Of a stretch of 64,000 nucleotides of DNA, positions 33,225-42,484 are shown one piece after another. Below the pieces are notes generated by a model. That model did no database searches, was not told the DNA's origin, and worked only from the letters and a program-made list of their open reading frames with translations. The position numbers and the translations under genes are program-made. The stretch's first letter is position 1; each line of letters opens with the position of its first letter. Source of the stretch: Lachnospiraceae bacterium (GTDB lineage: Bacteria > Bacillota > Clostridia > Lachnospirales > Lachnospiraceae); NCBI GenBank assembly GCA_024697065.1, contig JAILGE010000030.1:43972-107971 (forward strand), written 5' to 3'.

Positions 33225-33259
33225 AAAAAAAAGCGCCGGTTTATACCAGCGCTTTATTT
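33225..33259. terminator. Bidirectional terminator between convergent genes
   Basis: AAAGCGC...GGT and ACC...GCGCTTT pair around a TTAT loop, with A-run and T-rich flanks on either side. It overlaps the last codons of the minus-strand acyltransferase gene and serves both transcripts. Confidence 0.8.
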
Positions 33260-33975
33260 CTTATATATGCTTCTGTCATCATAGCACGTACAGTCTCCGG
33301 AAGAGCTTTTTTCTCTTCGCGGTTCATTGCAGGTACATCAACCGGAGGAAGATATTCAACGACTACATGTGCCGGCTTCAATGCGGGAAGATGATCTTCG
33401 AATATGGTCTGTGTGTTGTTCAGAACAACGGGGACTATCTTACATTTTCCCATTTCCGCGATCTTGAAGCTTCCCTTGTGGAATTCAAGCATAGGCTCAT
33501 CGGTCTTGTTTCTGGTACCCTCGGGGAATATAGCCATGGAAATTCCTCGCTTGATCTTCTGCGCGGAACTCTTGATAACATTAAGTCCCTGTCGTAAATC
33601 TTTTCTGTCAAGGAATTCACAGTGCAGTAACATCATCCACGTGGTAAGAGTAAAATACTTCTTCATCTCTTTCTTAGCGATATAACCTGTAGGACGGGGT
33701 ACCTGTCTGTATGTGATGAGTATGTCGAAGATACTGTGATGATTGATGATATAAAGCACCGGTTCATCTTTGGGAACGTTCTCAAGACCTATGAATGTGG
33801 TCTTAACCCCTGCTAATTTCAGGCATACTCCAAAAGCCCAGTTAACGATGCCAAGACTCATCTTATCCCGGCCGGAGGGACTGAAGATTCCTATAAGCAG
33901 TGCTATCAGCTGAAGCAGTATGGATACTGTCAGAAAGATAACAAGAAGAGGAACCAGTATGATAAAACGGATCAT
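33241..33975 (-). CDS. plsC: 1-acyl-sn-glycerol-3-phosphate acyltransferase (PlsC family)
   Basis: The 244-residue enzyme has an N-terminal membrane segment (about 2-30), the catalytic NHHSIFD (HxxxxD) motif near 75-81 and the FPEGTRNKTDEP motif near 150. It acylates lysophosphatidic acid in phospholipid synthesis, using acyl-ACP or acyl-CoA. A clear AAAGGAG precedes the start. It is 109 bp downstream of the SGNH/MBOAT genes on the same strand, and the AMP-ligase/ACP pair lies at the other end of that cluster, so a specialised role in that pathway is possible. Housekeeping PlsC is the simpler reading. Confidence 0.9.
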   Translation of the reverse strand: MIRFIILVPLLVIFLTVSILLQLIALLIGIFSPSGRDKMSLGIVNWAFGVCLKLAGVKTTFIGLENVPKDEPVLYIINHHSIFDILITYRQVPRPTGYIAKKEMKKYFTLTTWMMLLHCEFLDRKDLRQGLNVIKSSAQKIKRGISMAIFPEGTRNKTDEPMLEFHKGSFKIAEMGKCKIVPVVLNNTQTIFEDHLPALKPAHVVVEYLPPVDVPAMNREEKKALPETVRAMMTEAYIRNKALV

Positions 33976-34084
33976 TTATTTATCTCCTTTCAAAAAGGTC
34001 TGAAATTTTCTCAGATCTTTTACACAATGATACCATTATAAAGCATATATAGCCATATTGAATTGAATACTACATGAGATGGTA

Positions 34085-35512
34085 TCAGTTATCCGGATTT
34101 ATGGCACTTTCATAACGGCCCCAGAAATAATCTGTCATATATGTATTATAGATCTCTACAGGGACCTTAATACTTATATTTGCGGAAGCACCATCCAGGA
34201 GTTCTTCTCCCACTTCGGGCAATGCGCCGCAGGGAAGTATCACATCTCTTAGAATGGATGCACCGTAGAATGCACCATCCGATAAAGAATTGATAGATCG
34301 GGGAAGGGTGATCGAAGTAGCAACACTTCCGTCAAATGAATGGGAAGCGATACCTGTAACGGTTGATCCGCCGATCGTATCCGGTATCGTTATGGACGAT
34401 GCCTTCTTTCCGTCCTGAGTGAGGCCTGTAATGATGATTCCGGTATCCGTAACGTCATAGGTAAGAATATCTGTGCTGCCGCTGGATATAACGGCACCGT
34501 TTTGAGACACGGCAACGGGATATGGCATGCTTGTTGATGCGAGGGAGTTATCGCCCCTCTCTCTCTTTATATCATTTATAAGGAGCATGGTATTGTAGGT
34601 CATGCCGTAATCATTGGTATGGAAATTGGAATCGTAAAAAAATCCGGGATCCATTATGTGGTCATCCAGTGAGGAGATGACGGGGATATCAAGCCTGGAT
34701 CTGAGAGCGTTCACAAATGCCTGCTTCTGCTCATCCGACACATCACTTACGGAAAGTGAATTTATCGGACAGAATGCGAAATAGACTGTTGCACCTTTTA
34801 TCCTTGCCATAAGTGAATATCGGTTGATCATATCCGCAAAATCATCCGTAACAATGGAAGCATCTATATCGGGAAGTGAATCCGGAGCATAAGCCTTTGA
34901 CATGATATTACCGGGTCTCGGATAACTGATGTCGCCATAGGAGTCAAATGAAGAAAGTGCATAAACATTGTTATCGGATACAGAGGCTGCATTGGATGAC
35001 AGATTGTTTCTTTCATTCAGGAATCCTTTGAGAGCACCTGCCATTCCCGGAATCGAGTCTGCTTTCAGAGCAAATAGCATATCGGATCTTCCTTCACATG
35101 ATTTCCAGAGAGAATTATAGCCTTCATAATCGGAATACATCTGAGAGTCTGTCTCAGGACAGATGATCACAGTATCTCCCGGACGTATCGAAGAGGCCGA
35201 GAGATCCAGCATTGGCTTTAAGCCTATTGCGGCATAAAGGCCGAAGTTGACACAGGGTTCTCCAAGTTCTTTTTCTATAAGTTTTGAGTCTGTTCCGAAT
35301 GCAGTGGATGAACCGCCTATAACAATGATCCTGGGAGAAGGAGTATTTTTTAATCTGTCATATTTGAGCGGAAGGCCCGCATAGTAGCTTTCACCGTAAA
35401 CGGAAGGGAGTGAAGAGACGTAAAGTGTTACGGCTGCAACAGGAGTCATAATGATAACCGCCGCAACCAGAACTAACCATATAAATTTTACGATAGGTGA
35501 TTTTTTTTTCAT
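34085..35512 (-). CDS. Membrane-anchored SGNH-hydrolase-like protein with C-terminal leucine-rich repeats
   Basis: The 475-residue protein has an N-terminal anchor helix (about 8-32). An SGNH/GDSL-like domain follows (about 50-310): IIVIGGSSTAFGTD holds the nucleophile serine and FYDSNFHTNDYG, near 297, the Asp/His pair. Residues of about 345-475 form BspA-type leucine-rich repeats (IIITGLTQDG, TVTGIASHSFDG, ITLPRSINSLSDGAFYGA). SGNH proteins beside an MBOAT, as in DltD, AlgX or PatB, complete transfer or removal of acyl groups on surface polymers. It starts 6 bp after the MBOAT gene. The protein shares both modules, in reverse order, with the product of the gene upstream of the MBOAT gene. 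Confidence 0.82.
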   Translation of the reverse strand: MKKKSPIVKFIWLVLVAAVIIMTPVAAVTLYVSSLPSVYGESYYAGLPLKYDRLKNTPSPRIIVIGGSSTAFGTDSKLIEKELGEPCVNFGLYAAIGLKPMLDLSASSIRPGDTVIICPETDSQMYSDYEGYNSLWKSCEGRSDMLFALKADSIPGMAGALKGFLNERNNLSSNAASVSDNNVYALSSFDSYGDISYPRPGNIMSKAYAPDSLPDIDASIVTDDFADMINRYSLMARIKGATVYFAFCPINSLSVSDVSDEQKQAFVNALRSRLDIPVISSLDDHIMDPGFFYDSNFHTNDYGMTYNTMLLINDIKRERGDNSLASTSMPYPVAVSQNGAVISSGSTDILTYDVTDTGIIITGLTQDGKKASSITIPDTIGGSTVTGIASHSFDGSVATSITLPRSINSLSDGAFYGASILRDVILPCGALPEVGEELLDGASANISIKVPVEIYNTYMTDYFWGRYESAINPDN

Positions 35513-35518
35513 TCCGTT

Positions 35519-36901
35519 TTAAAAATTAAAATATATAAAATTATTTCCTGTCTGCGTTCCTGAACTTACCGCACCTGCGAGTATAACGATCCATGCGGAT
35601 ATCACCGCGATAAACAATGTACGGAGGAATCCTTTTTTGTTCCTGCAAAACCTGTCTGAAAAGACTGAGAAGATGATTGCGGGTATCATCACGTACAGAT
35701 ATGTGATCTGAGGCATGCATCTTGAGATCATTACCTGTGGAGCAGCCCAGGGTGATATCATCTGTTTAAATAACAACAGGGCACTTTCCACAGAGTCGGC
35801 TCTGAAGAACACCCATGCCGCAGTAACTAAAAGGAATGTACTGATAACGGCGGGTACTTTCCATATGAGAGATCTTTTCCCGGGACCGATGGCCCTGATG
35901 ATCTTATTCCCCAAAGGTGCAAACAGTATCTCCAGAACCTGTGCAATGCCGTGAAGGGCACCCCAGACAACGAAGTTGAGTGTGGGACCGTGCCAGACTC
36001 CACTGATCAAAAAAACTATGAGGATGTTGATAAGTCTTCTGGCGTTCCCTCTTTTACTTCCTCCCAAAGGTATATATATATACCCGGTAAGCCATTTTGT
36101 GAGAGTGATGTGCCATCTCTTCCAGAAGTTTCTTACGGACACGGCGGTATAGGGCGAATCGAAGTTCTCGGAAAGCTTTATCCCGAAGAGAGAAGCGCTG
36201 CCTATGGCAATATCCGTGTATCCCGAGAAATCAAACAGGATGAGGAAAGAGTACATGACAGATGCCGTAACAGCGGAGAGACCGTCTGCGCTTAAAGGGG
36301 ATGAAAACACGGTTTCAACACCGGGAGCGAGCAGATCCGCAACAGCGATCTTTTTTACAAAGCCTGTAGATATCCTTGTTATTCCGGTAAAAATATCTTC
36401 CTCAGAGAGAATGGGTCTTTTGGTAAGCTGTGGCAGAAAGTCCACAGGTCTTTCTATGGGACCTGCGGTTACCTTGGGGAAGAACATTGCGTATAAGAGA
36501 AACTGAACAGGGTCATATAAGGATATTAGCTTCTTTGATCTTAAGTCCGCCAGATACGAGATGCAGCGGAAAGTTATATAAGATATACCAAGGGGAACCG
36601 CCAGAGAGAGTTCAAGATATCTGTTCAGATATCTGCAGATAAAAAGAAGAGCGACGGAAATGATAATCCCGAAAGCAGTAAAAAGTGAAGCGCCTTTCTG
36701 CGATCTCTTTATGGCAATTCCAAGCATGTAGACTATCCAGAGATATATGAGTATCACGGGAAATGAAGAAAGAGAAAGCGATGCGTAGAAAAGCATCGAA
36801 AAAACAAGCAGTACCGCATTTCCAAAACGTGAAGGAAGCAGATGATAAAAAAGAACTGCCGTAAGTAAAAATATGATAAATGACAAAGATGTAAGCTGCA
36901 T
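35519..36901 (-). CDS. MBOAT-family membrane-bound O-acyltransferase (AlgI/DltB/PatA-like)
   Basis: The 460-residue polytopic membrane protein has the MBOAT pattern: FDFSGYTDIAIGSASLFG (about 225-242), NFWKRWHITLTKWL (about 260-273) and the catalytic-histidine region SGVWHGPTLNFVVWG (about 305-320). Family members move acyl groups across the membrane to alginate, peptidoglycan, teichoic acid or exopolysaccharide. It starts 1 bp after the upstream SGNH gene and ends 6 bp before the second, so the three are a tight operon. AlgI-type polysaccharide acetylation is the default reading; the nearby ligase and carrier protein also allow a Dlt-like reading. Confidence 0.92.
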   Translation of the reverse strand: MQLTSLSFIIFLLTAVLFYHLLPSRFGNAVLLVFSMLFYASLSLSSFPVILIYLWIVYMLGIAIKRSQKGASLFTAFGIIISVALLFICRYLNRYLELSLAVPLGISYITFRCISYLADLRSKKLISLYDPVQFLLYAMFFPKVTAGPIERPVDFLPQLTKRPILSEEDIFTGITRISTGFVKKIAVADLLAPGVETVFSSPLSADGLSAVTASVMYSFLILFDFSGYTDIAIGSASLFGIKLSENFDSPYTAVSVRNFWKRWHITLTKWLTGYIYIPLGGSKRGNARRLINILIVFLISGVWHGPTLNFVVWGALHGIAQVLEILFAPLGNKIIRAIGPGKRSLIWKVPAVISTFLLVTAAWVFFRADSVESALLLFKQMISPWAAPQVMISRCMPQITYLYVMIPAIIFSVFSDRFCRNKKGFLRTLFIAVISAWIVILAGAVSSGTQTGNNFIYFNF

Positions 36902-36902
36902 A

Positions 36903-39134
36903 TTATTGCTGTATCACTCCGCTTGCATTGATATCTTCTATAAGTCTGCCGGTACGTATGGCAGCTCCTTCGATCGTAAGGTGGCTGGCATTGTCATAAA
37001 AATAACCGTTGGACATAACATAAGTACCGGGAGTCGAGATTATGCGGCAGCAGTCTGTATCCAGCATGGAGGAGAGTCTGTCGCTGAAAGGTCGTGTGCT
37101 AAGGTCTGCCTCTTCCCTGCTCATTCCGTCTATACAGATGGGCGGGAATGAGAAGCAGCAGACGGCACCCTTGGCGTTTAATTTATAGCAAAGAGAGTTG
37201 AAGTGTTCCATTCCGCCGGAGGTGATGAGATTTTCCGAAGGAAGAGAGGCTTTAAAAGGACCGCCGGGATTTCTTACCGTGATAAGATCTCCCTGGTAAT
37301 TCATGCCGCTTCTTGAGTAGGCAGCTTTGCTGTTAATGGATTTACCGGGTATTATCTTTCTCTTACCGTTGAGATACGGAACGAAGGTTCCGAGAAGGGA
37401 ACGGTTTTCTTTAAGATCCATCTCTTCAAGGATGTCGTAATTGCTTTCCAGATATTCCCAGTTGGCTACGCTTCCTGATTCACTGTTGGCATACATTGTA
37501 TCTATGTATTCGGGAGCGAAGATAACGATATCTCCTTCCCGGACATTATTCTCAAGAAGATCCAGGAGAGGTATTATCCCGTAGCGGTAGGAACAGGAGA
37601 AATTGACCACCTGATAATCCGGAAAGGAAGTCTGGATCATTGGTGAATTGATACCGAAGGTAAGGCTTGATCCCCCTACAAGAATGATACGCCTGCCCTC
37701 GGTATTTTTAAGTCTCATGAATTTGTCGGCCAGTGCTGAATCATAATCGTAATCATATACTCTGGGGAGAGAAGCTATGATATGCAGATGTGAGAGAGCA
37801 TATGTATAGTTAAAAGCCGAAGGCGAATATTTTTTCAGAGTCTCGGGAAGATAAAGTGTCGTAAGCCCGGTGCATCCCGAAAAGCAGCTTTCACCCAGAT
37901 CATCAATACCTGTGGGGATTATGACAGTCTCTATATCTCTCCTTAATCTGAATGCTTCGGGACCGATGGCCAGAACCTGCACACCGTCGATGCTTTGAGG
38001 AATGCATAGAGTATCATCTTCAAGGATCGCATCATCCGTAAGGCCGGTAATGATAAGGCCCTTTTTCCCCATTCTGTAAGTAAAATATTCTTCAGGCGTG
38101 ATCTTTGCCCATTCGCAATAAAGATCCACATTATTTTCCGGCATGCTGATCATGGCACCGGGAGCATGATGAGTCCCGCTGCCGTCCGGTTTGGTATTGT
38201 AACCCGTGAGAACATAACCCTCTCTTTTGAAGCTTCCGTTATCTGCAGGGAGGTTATAGAGCGTGGAGGGACTGCAGTCTCTTAAAGCCTCGTTTCCGCT
38301 TACGTATGTGAAAGTTCCTCCGTTTGGATCGATATTTACATCATAAGTATGGGAGCTTTTGAAATTGGCAAAGCAAACCGTATCGCCTTTAAGAGGAATC
38401 TTAAGTTCTTCATCGGCTGTAAGGAAGGTGCCGCTTTCCGAAAGGGGAAGGTCTTCGGTCCATCCTTCGAAGACAGCATTTGCGCTGTCATAGGATACGG
38501 ACAGTTCCGCAATTTCACCGTAACGGTGATCAGCCAGAGGAGGCGATGCTATATAACCGGGACCCTTTGTAAAAGCTGCGAGTGTGACGGGTTCACCGAT
38601 AAAAGAAAATTCCACTTCACTGTCATCCCTTACCGTGAAAGTAAAGCTGTCTCCGGAAGGAAGCGGATAAGGGACACCGTTTACGGAAACGGCTGACAAT
38701 ACCCTGTGTTCATCGGGGCTAAAAGTTGCAGTTGCGGATCCTCCCGTAGGAACAGGCAAAGGAGTGGTGATGGAAGCCTTTCCGGCTCCGTTGACAAAAG
38801 CATGTATGTCGCAGAGATGTCCGGGCTTGTAATAATAACTTTTGTCGGAAGATGCGGGACCGAAGAAAAGAGTGGTGCTGTTTCCTGATACACCTTCTTT
38901 TTCTTCATAATAATAATCCGGATGAAATGCCACATCAAAACAGACTTCTTCGCCCACAGGGACGGTTTTGGGATTCTCGGAGAGAATATCCATTCCTTTG
39001 TCGGGTACAAGAAAAACAGTCGCATATCCGGAAGAACCCGCATGCGACATGGGTTCAAGGTGTGTTTTACAGACTGATGCCGTTATAGCAGCAATAGAGA
39101 GCAGGACGGCAAACAGGATATCAGAGCGTCTCAT
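36903..39134 (-). CDS. Secreted multidomain protein: InlB-type repeats, leucine-rich repeats and C-terminal SGNH-like domain
   Basis: The 743-residue protein has a signal or anchor segment (about 5-20). Its N-terminal half is beta-rich, with Listeria-Bacteroides (InlB B) repeat patterns, clearest at about 270-345 (VNIDPNGGTFTY, EGYVLTGYNTKPDGSG). BspA-type leucine-rich repeats follow (about 355-465: LIITGLTDDA, VLAIGPEAFR). The C-terminal SGNH-like domain (about 475-743) has RIILVGGSSLTFGIN with the serine and FYDNASHLT with the Asp/His pair. The repeats suggest binding to wall or carbohydrate and the hydrolase-like domain suggests acyl transfer. The ribosome site is weak. A promoter lies just upstream. 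Confidence 0.82.
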   Translation of the reverse strand: MRRSDILFAVLLSIAAITASVCKTHLEPMSHAGSSGYATVFLVPDKGMDILSENPKTVPVGEEVCFDVAFHPDYYYEEKEGVSGNSTTLFFGPASSDKSYYYKPGHLCDIHAFVNGAGKASITTPLPVPTGGSATATFSPDEHRVLSAVSVNGVPYPLPSGDSFTFTVRDDSEVEFSFIGEPVTLAAFTKGPGYIASPPLADHRYGEIAELSVSYDSANAVFEGWTEDLPLSESGTFLTADEELKIPLKGDTVCFANFKSSHTYDVNIDPNGGTFTYVSGNEALRDCSPSTLYNLPADNGSFKREGYVLTGYNTKPDGSGTHHAPGAMISMPENNVDLYCEWAKITPEEYFTYRMGKKGLIITGLTDDAILEDDTLCIPQSIDGVQVLAIGPEAFRLRRDIETVIIPTGIDDLGESCFSGCTGLTTLYLPETLKKYSPSAFNYTYALSHLHIIASLPRVYDYDYDSALADKFMRLKNTEGRRIILVGGSSLTFGINSPMIQTSFPDYQVVNFSCSYRYGIIPLLDLLENNVREGDIVIFAPEYIDTMYANSESGSVANWEYLESNYDILEEMDLKENRSLLGTFVPYLNGKRKIIPGKSINSKAAYSRSGMNYQGDLITVRNPGGPFKASLPSENLITSGGMEHFNSLCYKLNAKGAVCCFSFPPICIDGMSREEADLSTRPFSDRLSSMLDTDCCRIISTPGTYVMSNGYFYDNASHLTIEGAAIRTGRLIEDINASGVIQQ

Positions 39135-39163
39135 TTTGGTTTACCATAAATAAATTCATGTAA

Positions 39164-39192
39164 ATCATACCACATGGCGTTCTTTCGGGCAA
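39164..39192 (-). promoter_or_regulatory. Probable promoter of the SGNH-MBOAT operon
   Basis: On the minus strand, TTGCCC (39187-39192), a 17-bp spacer and TATGAT (39164-39169) precede the ATG at 39134. It is back to back with the promoter of the acyl ligase, so the two operons share one control region. Confidence 0.55.
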
Positions 39193-39205
39193 AGTAAAGC
39201 ACGGA

Positions 39206-39234
39206 TTGCGGGAAAACTGCAGGGGTGTTACAAT
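39206..39234 (+). promoter_or_regulatory. Probable promoter of the acyl ligase-ACP-pyrC transcript
   Basis: TTGCGG (39206-39211), a 17-bp spacer and TACAAT (39229-39234). The two -35 boxes of the divergent promoters are only 13 bp apart, so a single regulator could control both. Confidence 0.55.
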
Positions 39235-39286
39235 CAGAACGCCGGTGCGCATCAAAAATCAGCCGGAAAAAGGACAGGTAAGGATA

Positions 39287-40942
39287 ATGAAAAATAAAGA
39301 TTACCCTTTGTATGATACGCTCAGACAGATCACCGATCTTAAGGATATGGTGAACTCTCATGCTGTGGAACTGGCGGATAAGCCGGCATTCTCCTGGAAT
39401 GAGGGAAAAGAAGTTAAGACCAAAACCTTTGCTGATTTTAAAAATGATACCGAAGCCTTCGGTACATGGCTTTACAGCAAAAAATATAAAGATGTTCATA
39501 TCGCAGTTGTGGGCGAGAATTCTTATGAGTGGGTAGTTGCTTTTATGTCGGCTGCCAACGGCGGAGATGTTGCCGTAGCACTTGATAAGGAACTTCCCGA
39601 TGACAAATTGAAAGAGCTAGTAGAACAGGGCGAATGCTCGATTGTATTTGCTTCCGGCAAGAATTTCAAGAGCCTTGCAGGTGAGAACAAGCAGGAAGAG
39701 AACGCCGCTGTATGCACAGAGGTCTCCATCGGAGGAAAGATAGTTGATGTCTATAATCTTGAAGATGTAGAGGACTTCATTGCTACGGGAAAGACTCTTT
39801 TGAGTGGCGGCAATACGGATTATAAGGACTATAAGATCGATCCCGGGAAGATGGCTGCTCTTTTCTTTACTTCGGGAACCACGGGAAAGAGCAAAGGCGT
39901 AATGCTTTCACAGAAGAATATGGCAGCAGATATCAATGCGGCCTGCAAGAATTTCCTGCTTGAAGGCGAGACCACGTTGGCGCCTCTTCCTTTCCATCAT
40001 GCATTCGGTCTTATCACGGCCGTATTCATGGTATTCAACTACGGGAAGCTTGTTTTCATCAACAGATCTCTGAAACAGATACAGCGTGAGCTTAAGCAGG
40101 TTAAGCCTGATATGATGTTCCTTGTCCCTCTTTTTGTAGAGACATTTTACAAGCTTATCCGTCAGACCGTAAGAAAGAAGAAAAAGGAAAAAGTGCTTTC
40201 TGTCGCAAGCGGCGTCAGCAATATGCTCCTTGCGGTGGGTATCGATAAGCGTAACGATATCTTCCGGGAGGTAAGAGAAGGACTCGGCGGAAACTTAAGT
40301 GTTATCATCTCCGGTGGCGCTCACCTTGACGAGAAATATGTTAAAGCTTTCAGAACTTTCGGAATCGATATCCTTTGCGGATACGGTATTACCGAATGTG
40401 CGCCTGTTCTTTCCGTTAACAGAAACCATTATTTCTGCGACGGAAGTGTCGGACTTCCGCTTAAAGGCTGCGAAGTAAAGATCGCCGATGACGGTGAGAT
40501 CATTGCCCGCGGCGACAATGTTATGATGGGATATTATAAAGATAAGGAATCTACCGATGCCGTATTTGAGGACGGATGGTTCAAGACGGGTGATCTCGGA
40601 AGGATAAATGAGAATGGCTTTCTTTTCATTACCGGAAGAAAGAAAAATCTGGTAATCTTAAGTAACGGTGAGAATGTTTCGCCTGAGGAAATAGAAGACA
40701 GACTGCTCAGACACGAGGAGATAGCCGAGATAATCGTTTCCGGAGAGAACGGACAGCTTATCGCAGAGATCTTTCCTGCGGAGGGTCACATGGGTGATCA
40801 GGCTTTCTTCGACTCTCTCATCGATAAGGAAAATGAGAAGCAGCCTCAGTATAAGAAGATCAGGAAAGTGATACTTCGTGATACGGAATTTGAAAAGAAT
40901 TCAACCAAGAAGATCATCAGATATAAAAAGGATCAGGCTTAA
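39287..40942 (+). CDS. AMP-forming acyl ligase (long-chain acyl-CoA/acyl-ACP synthetase type)
   Basis: The 551-residue ANL-family enzyme has the ATP loop FFTSGTTGKSKGVMLSQ (about 200-216), PLPFHHAFGL, GYGITECAPVLSVN, the hinge region KTGDLGRINENGFLFITGRKKN broken around 420-440 and the C-terminal catalytic lysine in NSTKKIIRYKK. It activates a carboxylic acid as an acyl-adenylate and passes it to CoA or a carrier protein. The acyl carrier gene begins 31 bp downstream, so acyl-ACP formation is likely. TAAGGATA precedes ATG 39287; a longer open frame from 39206 starts within the promoter. Substrate unknown; fatty acid is the best guess. Confidence 0.9.
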   Translation: MKNKDYPLYDTLRQITDLKDMVNSHAVELADKPAFSWNEGKEVKTKTFADFKNDTEAFGTWLYSKKYKDVHIAVVGENSYEWVVAFMSAANGGDVAVALDKELPDDKLKELVEQGECSIVFASGKNFKSLAGENKQEENAAVCTEVSIGGKIVDVYNLEDVEDFIATGKTLLSGGNTDYKDYKIDPGKMAALFFTSGTTGKSKGVMLSQKNMAADINAACKNFLLEGETTLAPLPFHHAFGLITAVFMVFNYGKLVFINRSLKQIQRELKQVKPDMMFLVPLFVETFYKLIRQTVRKKKKEKVLSVASGVSNMLLAVGIDKRNDIFREVREGLGGNLSVIISGGAHLDEKYVKAFRTFGIDILCGYGITECAPVLSVNRNHYFCDGSVGLPLKGCEVKIADDGEIIARGDNVMMGYYKDKESTDAVFEDGWFKTGDLGRINENGFLFITGRKKNLVILSNGENVSPEEIEDRLLRHEEIAEIIVSGENGQLIAEIFPAEGHMGDQAFFDSLIDKENEKQPQYKKIRKVILRDTEFEKNSTKKIIRYKKDQA

Positions 40943-40973
40943 CCTGACAGAAAAAATATAAAGGAGAAATCAA

Positions 40974-41207
40974 ATGTTTGAGAAGATCGTAAATATTCTT
41001 GTGGAGCTTACCGAGAACAGTGTGAGTCCGGAGGACATCTCGAGAGACACCAAGCTTGTTTCGGATCTTGATCTCACATCACTTGATGTTGTTAATGCCG
41101 TAGTAATGTTCGAGGATGAATTTGATGTTCAGATCCCCGACGACAAGATCGCTGATCTTGAGACTGTAGGAGATATCGAAGAATATCTCAAGGATCTTAT
41201 AGGTTGA
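40974..41207 (+). CDS. Acyl carrier protein
   Basis: The 77-residue acidic helical protein has the carrier-protein pattern, with the 4'-phosphopantetheine serine at S36 in DLDLTSLDVVN. The usual DSL is TSL here, as in some specialised carriers; the following FEDEFDVQIPD is like fatty-acid-synthase ACPs. AAAGGAG precedes the ATG. It lies between the acyl ligase and pyrC, away from fatty acid synthesis genes, so it probably works with the ligase. It overlaps pyrC by 4 bp. Confidence 0.92.
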   Translation: MFEKIVNILVELTENSVSPEDISRDTKLVSDLDLTSLDVVNAVVMFEDEFDVQIPDDKIADLETVGDIEEYLKDLIG

Positions 41208-42484
41208 AAAAATTGTCTGAAAAATTACTGATCAAAAACGGAAAGCTTGTTAATCCCTGCGGTAAGAGCGGCATGTTTGACATTCTTGTGGAAGACGGGA
41301 ATGTAAGCAGTATCGCCCCGGCAGGGAGTTTACAGGGAGATACGGTGATAGATGCCGGGGGCTGTATAGTGGCGCCCGGGTTTGTTGATGTTCATTCTCA
41401 TTTCAGAGATCCCGGCCAGACTTACAAGGAGGACATCCTCACCGGCGCAGAAGCGGCAAAGAGGGGCGGATACACATCTATCGTCCTGATGGCCAATACC
41501 ATCCCTGCAGTTGATAATGCGGATACGGTTAAATACGTACTGGATAAAGGAAAGAAAACAGGGATACGTATCCATACCTGCGCGAATATAACCATGGGAA
41601 TGGCCGGCAGTGAGCTCACGGATTTTGCGGAGCTGAAAAAAGCCGGAGCAATAGGCTTTACAGATGACGGTAAGCCTCTTCTCGATAAAGAGCTTGTGCG
41701 TGATGCCATGGTTGCGGCAAAGCAGCTGGACGTGCCTTTGAGTTTTCACGAGGAAGATCCTGCATTTATAAAGAATAACGGAATTAATCACGGCAAGGCT
41801 TCCGAGCATTTTGAGATCTACGGTGCCGACAGGGAAGCTGAAATCTCAATGGTAAAGAGAGATATAGAGCTCGCAAAAGAGACCGGCGCGGATATCGACA
41901 TACAGCATATCAGTACGGCGGAGGGGGTAGAGCTTGTACGACAGGCACGTAAAACCCATAAAAATGTTCATGCCGAAGCAACGCCGCATCATTTTTCTCT
42001 TACCGAAGATGCGGTAATAGAATTCGGAACACTGGCAAAGATGAATCCGCCTGTCAGAACCGAGGATGACCGCATCGCCATAATAGAAGGATTAAAAGAT
42101 GGCACTATAGAAATGATCGCGACGGATCACGCTCCTCACAGTATGGAGGAGAAGGAAAAGGGTCTGCTTCAGGCACCGAGCGGTATAATTGGGCTGGAGA
42201 CGGCGCTTCCTCTGGCGATAATGAACCTTGTGGATCCGGGTTATCTGTCAATGGAACAGTTCATTGAAAGGATAAGCTGCGCACCTGCGGCGCTTTATCA
42301 TCTGGATGCAGGAGTGATAGAGGAAGGTAAGGCGGCGGATATCGTGATATTTGATCCGGAAGAAAAGTGGATCGCCGGAGATTATGCTTCCAAATCTGAG
42401 AACAGCCCCTTCACGGGAAAAGAGATGACAGGAAAGATTAAATATACTCTGTGTGAGGGCAGAACGGTATATAGAGATTTTTGA
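41204..42484 (+). CDS. pyrC: Dihydroorotase
   Basis: The zinc enzyme closes carbamoyl aspartate to dihydroorotate in pyrimidine synthesis. The 426-residue length and motifs fit class I: GFVDVHSHFRDPGQTYKEDI (metal-binding HxH), RIHTCANITMG, EATPHHFSLTE and MIATDHAPHS with the catalytic aspartate. The start is TTG 41204, overlapping the ACP stop (TTGA), so translation is coupled. No other pyrimidine gene is nearby. Coupling of pyrC to an ACP gene is unusual and may only reflect shared transcription. Confidence 0.95.
   Translation: MKKLSEKLLIKNGKLVNPCGKSGMFDILVEDGNVSSIAPAGSLQGDTVIDAGGCIVAPGFVDVHSHFRDPGQTYKEDILTGAEAAKRGGYTSIVLMANTIPAVDNADTVKYVLDKGKKTGIRIHTCANITMGMAGSELTDFAELKKAGAIGFTDDGKPLLDKELVRDAMVAAKQLDVPLSFHEEDPAFIKNNGINHGKASEHFEIYGADREAEISMVKRDIELAKETGADIDIQHISTAEGVELVRQARKTHKNVHAEATPHHFSLTEDAVIEFGTLAKMNPPVRTEDDRIAIIEGLKDGTIEMIATDHAPHSMEEKEKGLLQAPSGIIGLETALPLAIMNLVDPGYLSMEQFIERISCAPAALYHLDAGVIEEGKAADIVIFDPEEKWIAGDYASKSENSPFTGKEMTGKIKYTLCEGRTVYRDF

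Follow-up and report, generated by a model that had tools for sequence, protein, structure and literature searches.

A conserved MBOAT/SGNH-LRR module, putatively for surface acylation, beside a probably separate ligase and carrier pair in a Lachnospiraceae bacterium

In peptidoglycan O-acetylation, PatA self-acetylates the tyrosine of an FxYxxF motif from acetyl-CoA and PatB uses an acetyl-Tyr hexapeptide; this acyl shuttle, which PatA-type MBOATs carry themselves and which resides on DltX in the Dlt system, is associated, where it is fused, with acyl-CoA donors, as far as the excerpted text of the source goes (PMC12148441). In the alginate system (AlgI/AlgJ/AlgF/AlgX), again according to an excerpt, one MBOAT is served by two distinct SGNH proteins: AlgX, whose SGNH domain is accompanied by a carbohydrate-binding module, binds the polymer, and AlgJ shows weak binding or none (PMC4148444). 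Here we compare these systems, and the Dlt system, with a locus of a Lachnospiraceae bacterium (assembly GCA_024697065.1, 2.69 Mb in 44 contigs). In the window, by which we mean the whole stretch of 64,000 nucleotides analysed (contig JAILGE010000030.1, positions 43,972 to 107,971), the gene of an MBOAT acyltransferase lies between those of two leucine-rich repeat (LRR) proteins that we call SGNHa and SGNHb, names that rest on fold and motif and not on a match to a family profile. Across a divergent intergenic region from this trio stands a pair of genes, coding for an AMP-forming acyl ligase and an acyl carrier protein (ACP), and the initial annotation had joined both arms into a single Dlt-like pathway. 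It seems to us quite probable that the trio moves an acyl group via the C-terminal tyrosine of the MBOAT itself to the serines of the SGNH proteins and from there to a surface glycan, and that the ligase and the ACP form a separate unit. The basis of this reading is gene content, conserved gene order, motif, phylogeny and predicted folds.

The MBOAT gene (35519..36901, minus strand; Pfam MBOAT PF03062, 136.5 bits) encodes a protein whose C-terminus is FIYFNF (residues 455-460, with Tyr457), an FxYxxF acyl shuttle, and whose WHG motif at 303-305 aligns with the WHG of DltB. Because the hexapeptide is fused at its C-terminus, we assign the MBOAT by its anatomy, as read from the sequence, to the Pat/Alg type. 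The same ending occurs in 20 of the 20 other MBOATs of the first gene maps and in 58 of the 59 MBOAT open reading frames (ORFs) of the 78 module loci described below, the sole exception ending in an ambiguous stretch. Among the 664 ORFs of at least 25 amino acids in the window, just one ends in F.Y..F, namely the MBOAT itself, and no separate DltX-type microprotein with an FxYxxF ending was found. The nearest solved structures are those of DltB (8jem and 6bug, 98 bits); the MBOAT misses the cut-off of the DltB equivalog NCBIfam TIGR04091 (167.4 versus 375 bits), a model to which nine other MBOATs score 138-202 bits, one of them, from a trio, reaching 201.9.

The partner proteins are both encoded on the minus strand. 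SGNHa (36903..39134) comprises a transmembrane or signal helix at about 4-22, InlB-like beta domains, an LRR_5 region at 390-462 and an SGNH domain at about 455-743, and SGNHb (34085..35512) a transmembrane anchor at 10-28, an SGNH domain and a C-terminal LRR_5 region at 371-453. Their assignment as putative SGNH proteins rests on an invariant serine and histidine together with modest fold matches. The candidate catalytic residues are Ser489, Asp714 and His718 in SGNHa and Ser68, Asp294 and His298 in SGNHb. The GxS serine and the DxxxH-type histidine are invariant in 12/12 rows of one alignment (A1) and 33/33 rows of another (A3), and the catalytic aspartate is present in 6/12 rows (asparagine in the rest) and 31/33 rows, respectively. 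Foldseek searches with the AlphaFold models (pLDDT 90.2 for SGNHa and 81.5 for SGNHb) gave modest matches: the repeats hit LRR proteins, and the remaining parts SGNH folds including DltD and rhamnogalacturonan acetylesterase; the second-ranked match of SGNHb is DltD 6pfx (E 7.9e-4, TM to target 0.32). Leucine-rich and InlB-like repeats had also been announced for these proteins. The former are clear in SGNHa (LRR_5, 40.3 bits) and fall just below the cut-off in SGNHb (27.2 versus 27.7 bits); for the latter, the window protein itself gave no call at E<=1e-3, but of 32 homologues 26 are listed with PF09479 or PF18998, and the protein of locus L134 with PF18998.

LRR_5 and InlB-like domains are typical of surface binding proteins, and the acetylesterases 1deo, 3c1u and 7pzg score similarly to DltD in the Foldseek searches. 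Both facts would suit SGNH-LRR proteins that act as surface esterases or adhesins, removing or binding acyl-sugars, and that are not members of a relay. We regard this as very unlikely in view of their conserved position beside an MBOAT whose FxYxxF is intact, and also because seven of the nine mapped SGNHb relatives that lack the LRR part (L135-L143) adjoin an MBOAT.

This adjacency was followed in loci collected by a contig scan of genomes with an alignment of 33 SGNHa proteins, 78 loci being kept (best 80 of 148 relatives). By tblastn, 63 of the 78 have an SGNH stretch with an MBOAT on its strand no more than 2.5 kb away, and 55 of these 63 contain at least two SGNH stretches; in the ORF maps the exact order SGNHa-MBOAT-SGNHb, on the plus strand, is found in 34/78. 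In a tree of 71 MBOATs the window and ten loci, L165-L174, form one clade of 11 rows with a support of 100/100. Judged by these genomic patterns, the MBOAT and the two SGNH-LRR proteins are a conserved three-gene module, and the initial annotation was right in holding that the three belong together and that their anatomy points to the export of acyl groups to the surface. Among the 35 genomes of the window's genus in the search set, a close orthologue of the MBOAT is found in the sister species only (73%, the next by score being at 37%), where the stretch from a GGDEF gene to an RND gene is syntenic with the window; this genome carries two labels, G185 and G193 (locus L165), as does G039, which is G197 (L169). 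Compared with the sister species, the MBOAT is the most diverged of 11 genes, with 73.3% protein identity versus 85-99% for the others, and the two SGNH proteins are 85-89% identical. Four of the module loci (L185, L187, L192 and L194) share nearby gene clusters, for which typing in L187 gave an ABC-2 transporter, an ABC ATPase and a ManC-like protein, and these polysaccharide-type ABC export and ManC-like neighbours suggest a surface glycan as the acceptor.

The trio has several features of a PatAB-type system: as in the excerpted account of PatA/PatB (PMC12148441), an FxYxxF is fused to the C-terminus of an MBOAT with a conserved histidine, here that of WHG, and an SGNH partner, here with an invariant serine and histidine, is adjacent. 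It differs from PatA/PatB in that the SGNH partners are two in number, LRR_5 occurring in both and InlB-like domains in one, and in belonging to gut Clostridia. The service of one MBOAT by two SGNH proteins recalls alginate acetylation, and the window repeats may be a functional parallel to the carbohydrate-binding module of AlgX, as the partial text of PMC4148444 describes it; in contrast to that system, the added domains are LRR and InlB-like ones and Pfam ALGX (PF16822) matches neither window SGNH protein. ALGX does match the partners of two other MBOATs of the host genome (L045 and L047), which has six MBOAT, five PP-binding and three AMP-binding (PF00501) genes by Pfam.

The mechanism we propose reads the trio as a relay resembling PatAB and AlgI-AlgJ-AlgX, with repeat-decorated partners. 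The MBOAT would take an acyl group from a cytoplasmic thioester, likely an acyl-CoA, with His304 of the WHG motif acting as the base, and would acylate Tyr457 of its own FIYFNF. The acyl-tyrosine would then be passed to a serine of the SGNH proteins (Ser68 or Ser489); anchored in the membrane, these proteins would transfer the acyl group to a surface polymer while their LRR and InlB-like domains hold or reach the acceptor. That the repeat domains position the acceptor is proposed by analogy with AlgX, and what we say of donor and acceptor, of the chemistry as a whole and of what the repeats do is inferred.

On the other side of the divergent region lie the genes of the ligase (39287..40942, plus strand; AMP-binding PF00501 and AMP-binding_C_3, FadD/MenE-like), which we judge to belong to a separate unit, and of the ACP (40974..41207, plus strand; PP-binding PF00550, with Ser36 in an LTSLD motif). 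The locus shares with Dlt the MBOAT and SGNH chemistry, the DltB structures as best solved relatives of the MBOAT, and a ligase and a carrier next door. It differs in that the DltB cut-off is missed, the carrier lacks a DltC match, the ligase is FadD/MenE-like and the shuttle is fused and not on a DltX; moreover, elsewhere in the window's MBOAT clade, the sister species excepted, no such pair was seen beside the trio. Among the best 25 of 100 NCBIfam families, those matching the ligase best are fatty-acid and o-succinylbenzoate CoA ligases, and the amino-acid adenylation cut-off is missed (AA-adenyl-dom, 124.6 versus 317.4). The DltC model NF003464 is absent from the 15 NCBIfam families that the window ACP matches at E<=1e-3; it did match another ACP of the host genome (L051, 20.9 bits). 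Membership of the Dlt system was rejected, as the MBOAT, the carrier and the ligase fall short of the profiles of DltB, DltC and DltA and the window lacks a separate DltX-type ORF.

Among the loci examined, a pair of the window type adjoins the trio just in the window and in the sister species. In the nine other members of the clade, L166-L174, no ligase was found in the available DNA, which extends at least 5.7 kb upstream of the SGNHa gene in six (L166, L167, L168, L169, L170 and L172) and at most 1 kb in L171, L173 and L174. When their whole genomes were searched for the window-type ligase, six had no match at E<=1e-40; of the three with weaker matches, one showed 37% within a frame of 1005 aa and the other two were partial. 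The reverse comparison leads to the same separation. Five ligase relatives at 57-65% identity (G176, G004, G160, G164 and G189) are each followed within 260 bp by an ACP match, and tblastn found no match to the MBOAT, SGNHa or SGNHb at E<=1e-3 within 19-20 kb around these pairs, nor was there a match to SGNHa at E<=1e-6 in the five genomes, of which G176 is 72% and G189 85% complete. In addition, protein identity to the sister species is 93.8% for the ligase and 98.7% for the ACP but 73.3% for the MBOAT, a difference that speaks for separateness. We judge the two arms to be separable because nine clade members have the trio without the pair and the five nearest pairs stand without the trio, and on this comparative evidence the ligase and the ACP are likely a separate acyl-activating unit. 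The initial annotation, in which the ligase and ACP feed the MBOAT in a Dlt-like manner, loses support at this point: the neighbourhood comparison, named beforehand as the one to decide against it, found the trio without the ligase in L166-L174, as far as the neighbourhoods are readable. The better-supported reading is the simpler alternative that it had offered, of an acetylation operon and an activation pair as chance neighbours.

Two-gene units of a ligase and an ACP, which we take to be acyl-ACP synthetase-like, are found more widely. Of 35 loci of ligase relatives, among which several share a genome, 20 have an ACP match no farther than 260 bp from the ligase, and tblastn found SGNHa in none, SGNHb in one (L040, a weak match of 42 bits) and an MBOAT in three. 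In these three (L146, L147 and L148) the frame that matches the ligase codes for a longer protein, of 987-993 aa, for which typing in L146 gave AMP-binding, PP-binding and NAD_binding_4. The three belong to genus members, in which an MBOAT (FIYFKF), a 358-359 aa protein and this A-T-reductase-like protein stand side by side (for instance L146:6457-12399). The first maps had shown a 25-bit SGNHa match in L044 and a 22-bit SGNHb match in L040, perhaps to repeats only, and tblastn repeated that in L040 alone. The window pair stands beside pyrC, whereas those of two genus members are behind an apparent metK: the preceding gene was read as metK in G004, and in G176 it was so read from its same length and matching upstream sequence.

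Several observations weigh against the reading we favour. Neither partner protein matches the SGNH, AlgX, DHHW or DltD families at E<=1e-3 in Pfam and NCBIfam, so that of their claimed SGNH identity the invariant residues and modest folds stand and a family membership does not. Fifteen of the 78 module loci fail the 2.5-kb test for an MBOAT, and 13 of these show none in the available DNA; their contigs are often short, but for L191 21.6 kb are available. In L240 and L242 the MBOAT is farther away, behind a ligase gene. Many relatives, among them most of L166-L174 by record title, are metagenome-assembled genomes, in which the absence of a gene is weaker evidence and no proof. The divergent adjacency of pair and trio is kept in the sister species. 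The gap between the arms (39135..39286) is 139/151 identical (92.1%), the highest value of eight intergenic stretches measured and above all the coding sequences of the two arms (71.9-85.6%) except that of the ACP (93.1%); coding sequences of an ABC transporter farther upstream are also about 92% identical. The gap contains an 8-bp inverted repeat, GGCGTTCT at 39176-39183 and AGAACGCC at 39236-39243, of which both copies are kept in the sister species; such a pair is unremarkable in 152 bp, about 0.16 being expected by chance (an estimate, not a computed value). Because the gap is strongly conserved and the inverted repeat kept, shared control of both arms is possible.

Close to the SGNH or MBOAT genes, and on their strand, a ligase of 495-540 aa with an AMP-binding domain is present in 13 of the 78 module loci (L199, L203, L204, L207, L209, L215, L217, L220, L221, L236, L237, L240 and L242; in L224 a nearby ligase was seen by tblastn only), and the ten of these that have an MBOAT row form one clade, remote from that of the window, with a support of 100/100. 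The three of these ligases that were typed are all FadD-like. This is independent evidence that such a module can be coupled to acid activation, so that feeding by a ligase is possible. In the host genome itself, contig C17 (L049:4211-14809, minus strand) has an MBOAT ending in FAYYIF in a same-strand run with a 90-aa PP-binding protein and an FkbH_N protein, MaoC-like and SDR enzymes, a GT10 fucosyltransferase-like gene and other glycosyltransferases. From this gene content it is a candidate carrier-fed MBOAT, and because an MBOAT with FxYxxF stands there in one run with a carrier gene, a donor bound to a carrier may be compatible with a fused shuttle.

These observations bear on three other accounts of the ligase. 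According to the initial annotation, it would load an acyl group, perhaps a fatty acyl, on the ACP, and the acyl-ACP would feed the trio in a Dlt-like manner, the pathway having been recruited in this lineage. In its favour are the adjacency and the conserved gap, the other host-genome MBOAT in a run with a carrier protein and the three AMP-binding genes of the host, for which no DltA family stands among the 25 best. The pair is absent from nine clade members, however, and the trio from beside the five nearest pairs; the fused shuttle is of the kind associated with acyl-CoA donors in the excerpt of PMC12148441, and the ACP, without a DltC match at E<=1e-3, has a gene that abuts pyrC. We hold this pathway to be distinctly unlikely and do not call it flatly unsupported, mainly because the remote module clade has its own acyl-CoA ligase beside the module; taken as a whole, the interpretation of the initial annotation is partly supported. 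Alternatively, the ligase would supply acyl-CoA, and not acyl-ACP, to the MBOAT, as a functional parallel to the ligase-bearing clade. That clade is the argument for it, but the window ligase is just 28% identical to that of L203 (325 columns, 94 bits), it lies outside the presumed transcription unit of the trio and its relatives have an ACP beside them, and we find the proposal highly doubtful. Somewhat less improbable, while still unlikely, is that the ligase and ACP were captured beside the trio and that a single divergent control region came to govern both, the outcome being a carrier-fed MBOAT with a fused shuttle that would bring longer acyl groups to a surface glycan.

Around these ligase-bearing loci further observations were made. 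In L199, L203, L207, L215, L217, L237, L240 and L242 the gene before the MBOAT codes for an 81-101 aa protein that reads as hydrophobic, and L224 has such a protein too. No ACP similar to that of the window was found in the ligase-bearing loci, the comparison covering similarity to the window ACP only, with no Pfam carrier scan. More generally, one set of small hydrophobic proteins is found near the MBOAT in 9 loci (for instance L199:5979-6236 and L207:13025-13270) and a second family, of about 72 aa, in 5 (for instance L179:12280-12498); two that were tested had no Pfam match. A family of large proteins occurs near 12 of the 78 module loci, typed in L237 (5829-8873) as a GH3 glycosidase, a GHKL kinase family near 8 and a LytTR regulator family near 6, with one member typed of each (L191:6713-7987 and L208:8744-9490). 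The divergent ligase of L241 was rejected as a parallel to the window: it adjoins genes read, with no family search, as indolepyruvate oxidoreductase subunits and a PaaK-like ligase.

As regards the window itself, all six ORFs of the initial annotation are open, Pfam confirms its PlsC-type, MBOAT, AMP-binding and PP-binding genes, and the divergent gap of 152 bp is real. The back-to-back promoters placed in this gap are weakly supported: a scan calls a site on the minus strand only (39192-39164), a plus-strand TTGCGG-17-TACAAT is visible by eye, and promoter-like sites in the region number 23 versus 18.0 +/- 4.0 in shuffles. One copy of the inverted repeat lies near each presumed promoter, as a possible shared operator would; no copy of the 8-mer was found in five 280-base slices upstream of other ligase orthologues, some of them maybe taken from a wrong start codon. 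The ligase frame runs on upstream to a TTG at 39206, the ATG at 39287 being the likelier start. The dihydroorotase gene pyrC, a housekeeping gene (41204..42484, plus strand), follows: its frame runs from about 41204 and the ACP stop is at 41207, and because the two genes overlap or abut, a single transcript probably covers ligase, ACP and dihydroorotase in this lineage. Beyond SGNHb lies the gene of a PlsC-type 1-acylglycerol-3-phosphate acyltransferase (33241..33975, minus strand; Pfam Acyltransferase PF01553), initially counted as part of the system; we rejected it as a member, since a match occurs in just one of the 78 module loci, that of the sister species. Rfam gave no matches on the window at gathering scores.

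In the open-licence full-text literature, outside which most subscription journals lie, we found no account of the MBOAT/SGNH-LRR architecture, and none of an MBOAT-SGNH system with an acyl-CoA synthetase or an acyl carrier protein. The locus illustrates how units that are neighbours, yet separable, can add up to a Dlt-like gene list. If the ligase and ACP had nevertheless been captured by the trio, a carrier-fed MBOAT with a fused shuttle would be a third architecture, between Dlt, with its carrier and separate shuttle, and Pat/Alg, with acyl-CoA and a fused shuttle. The clade that has its own acyl-CoA ligase makes it testable which acyl groups besides acetyl such relays carry. On the reading we favour, surface acylation by MBOAT-SGNH systems would reach into Clostridia of the rumen and gut, there with SGNH partners to which LRR and InlB-like domains are fused.

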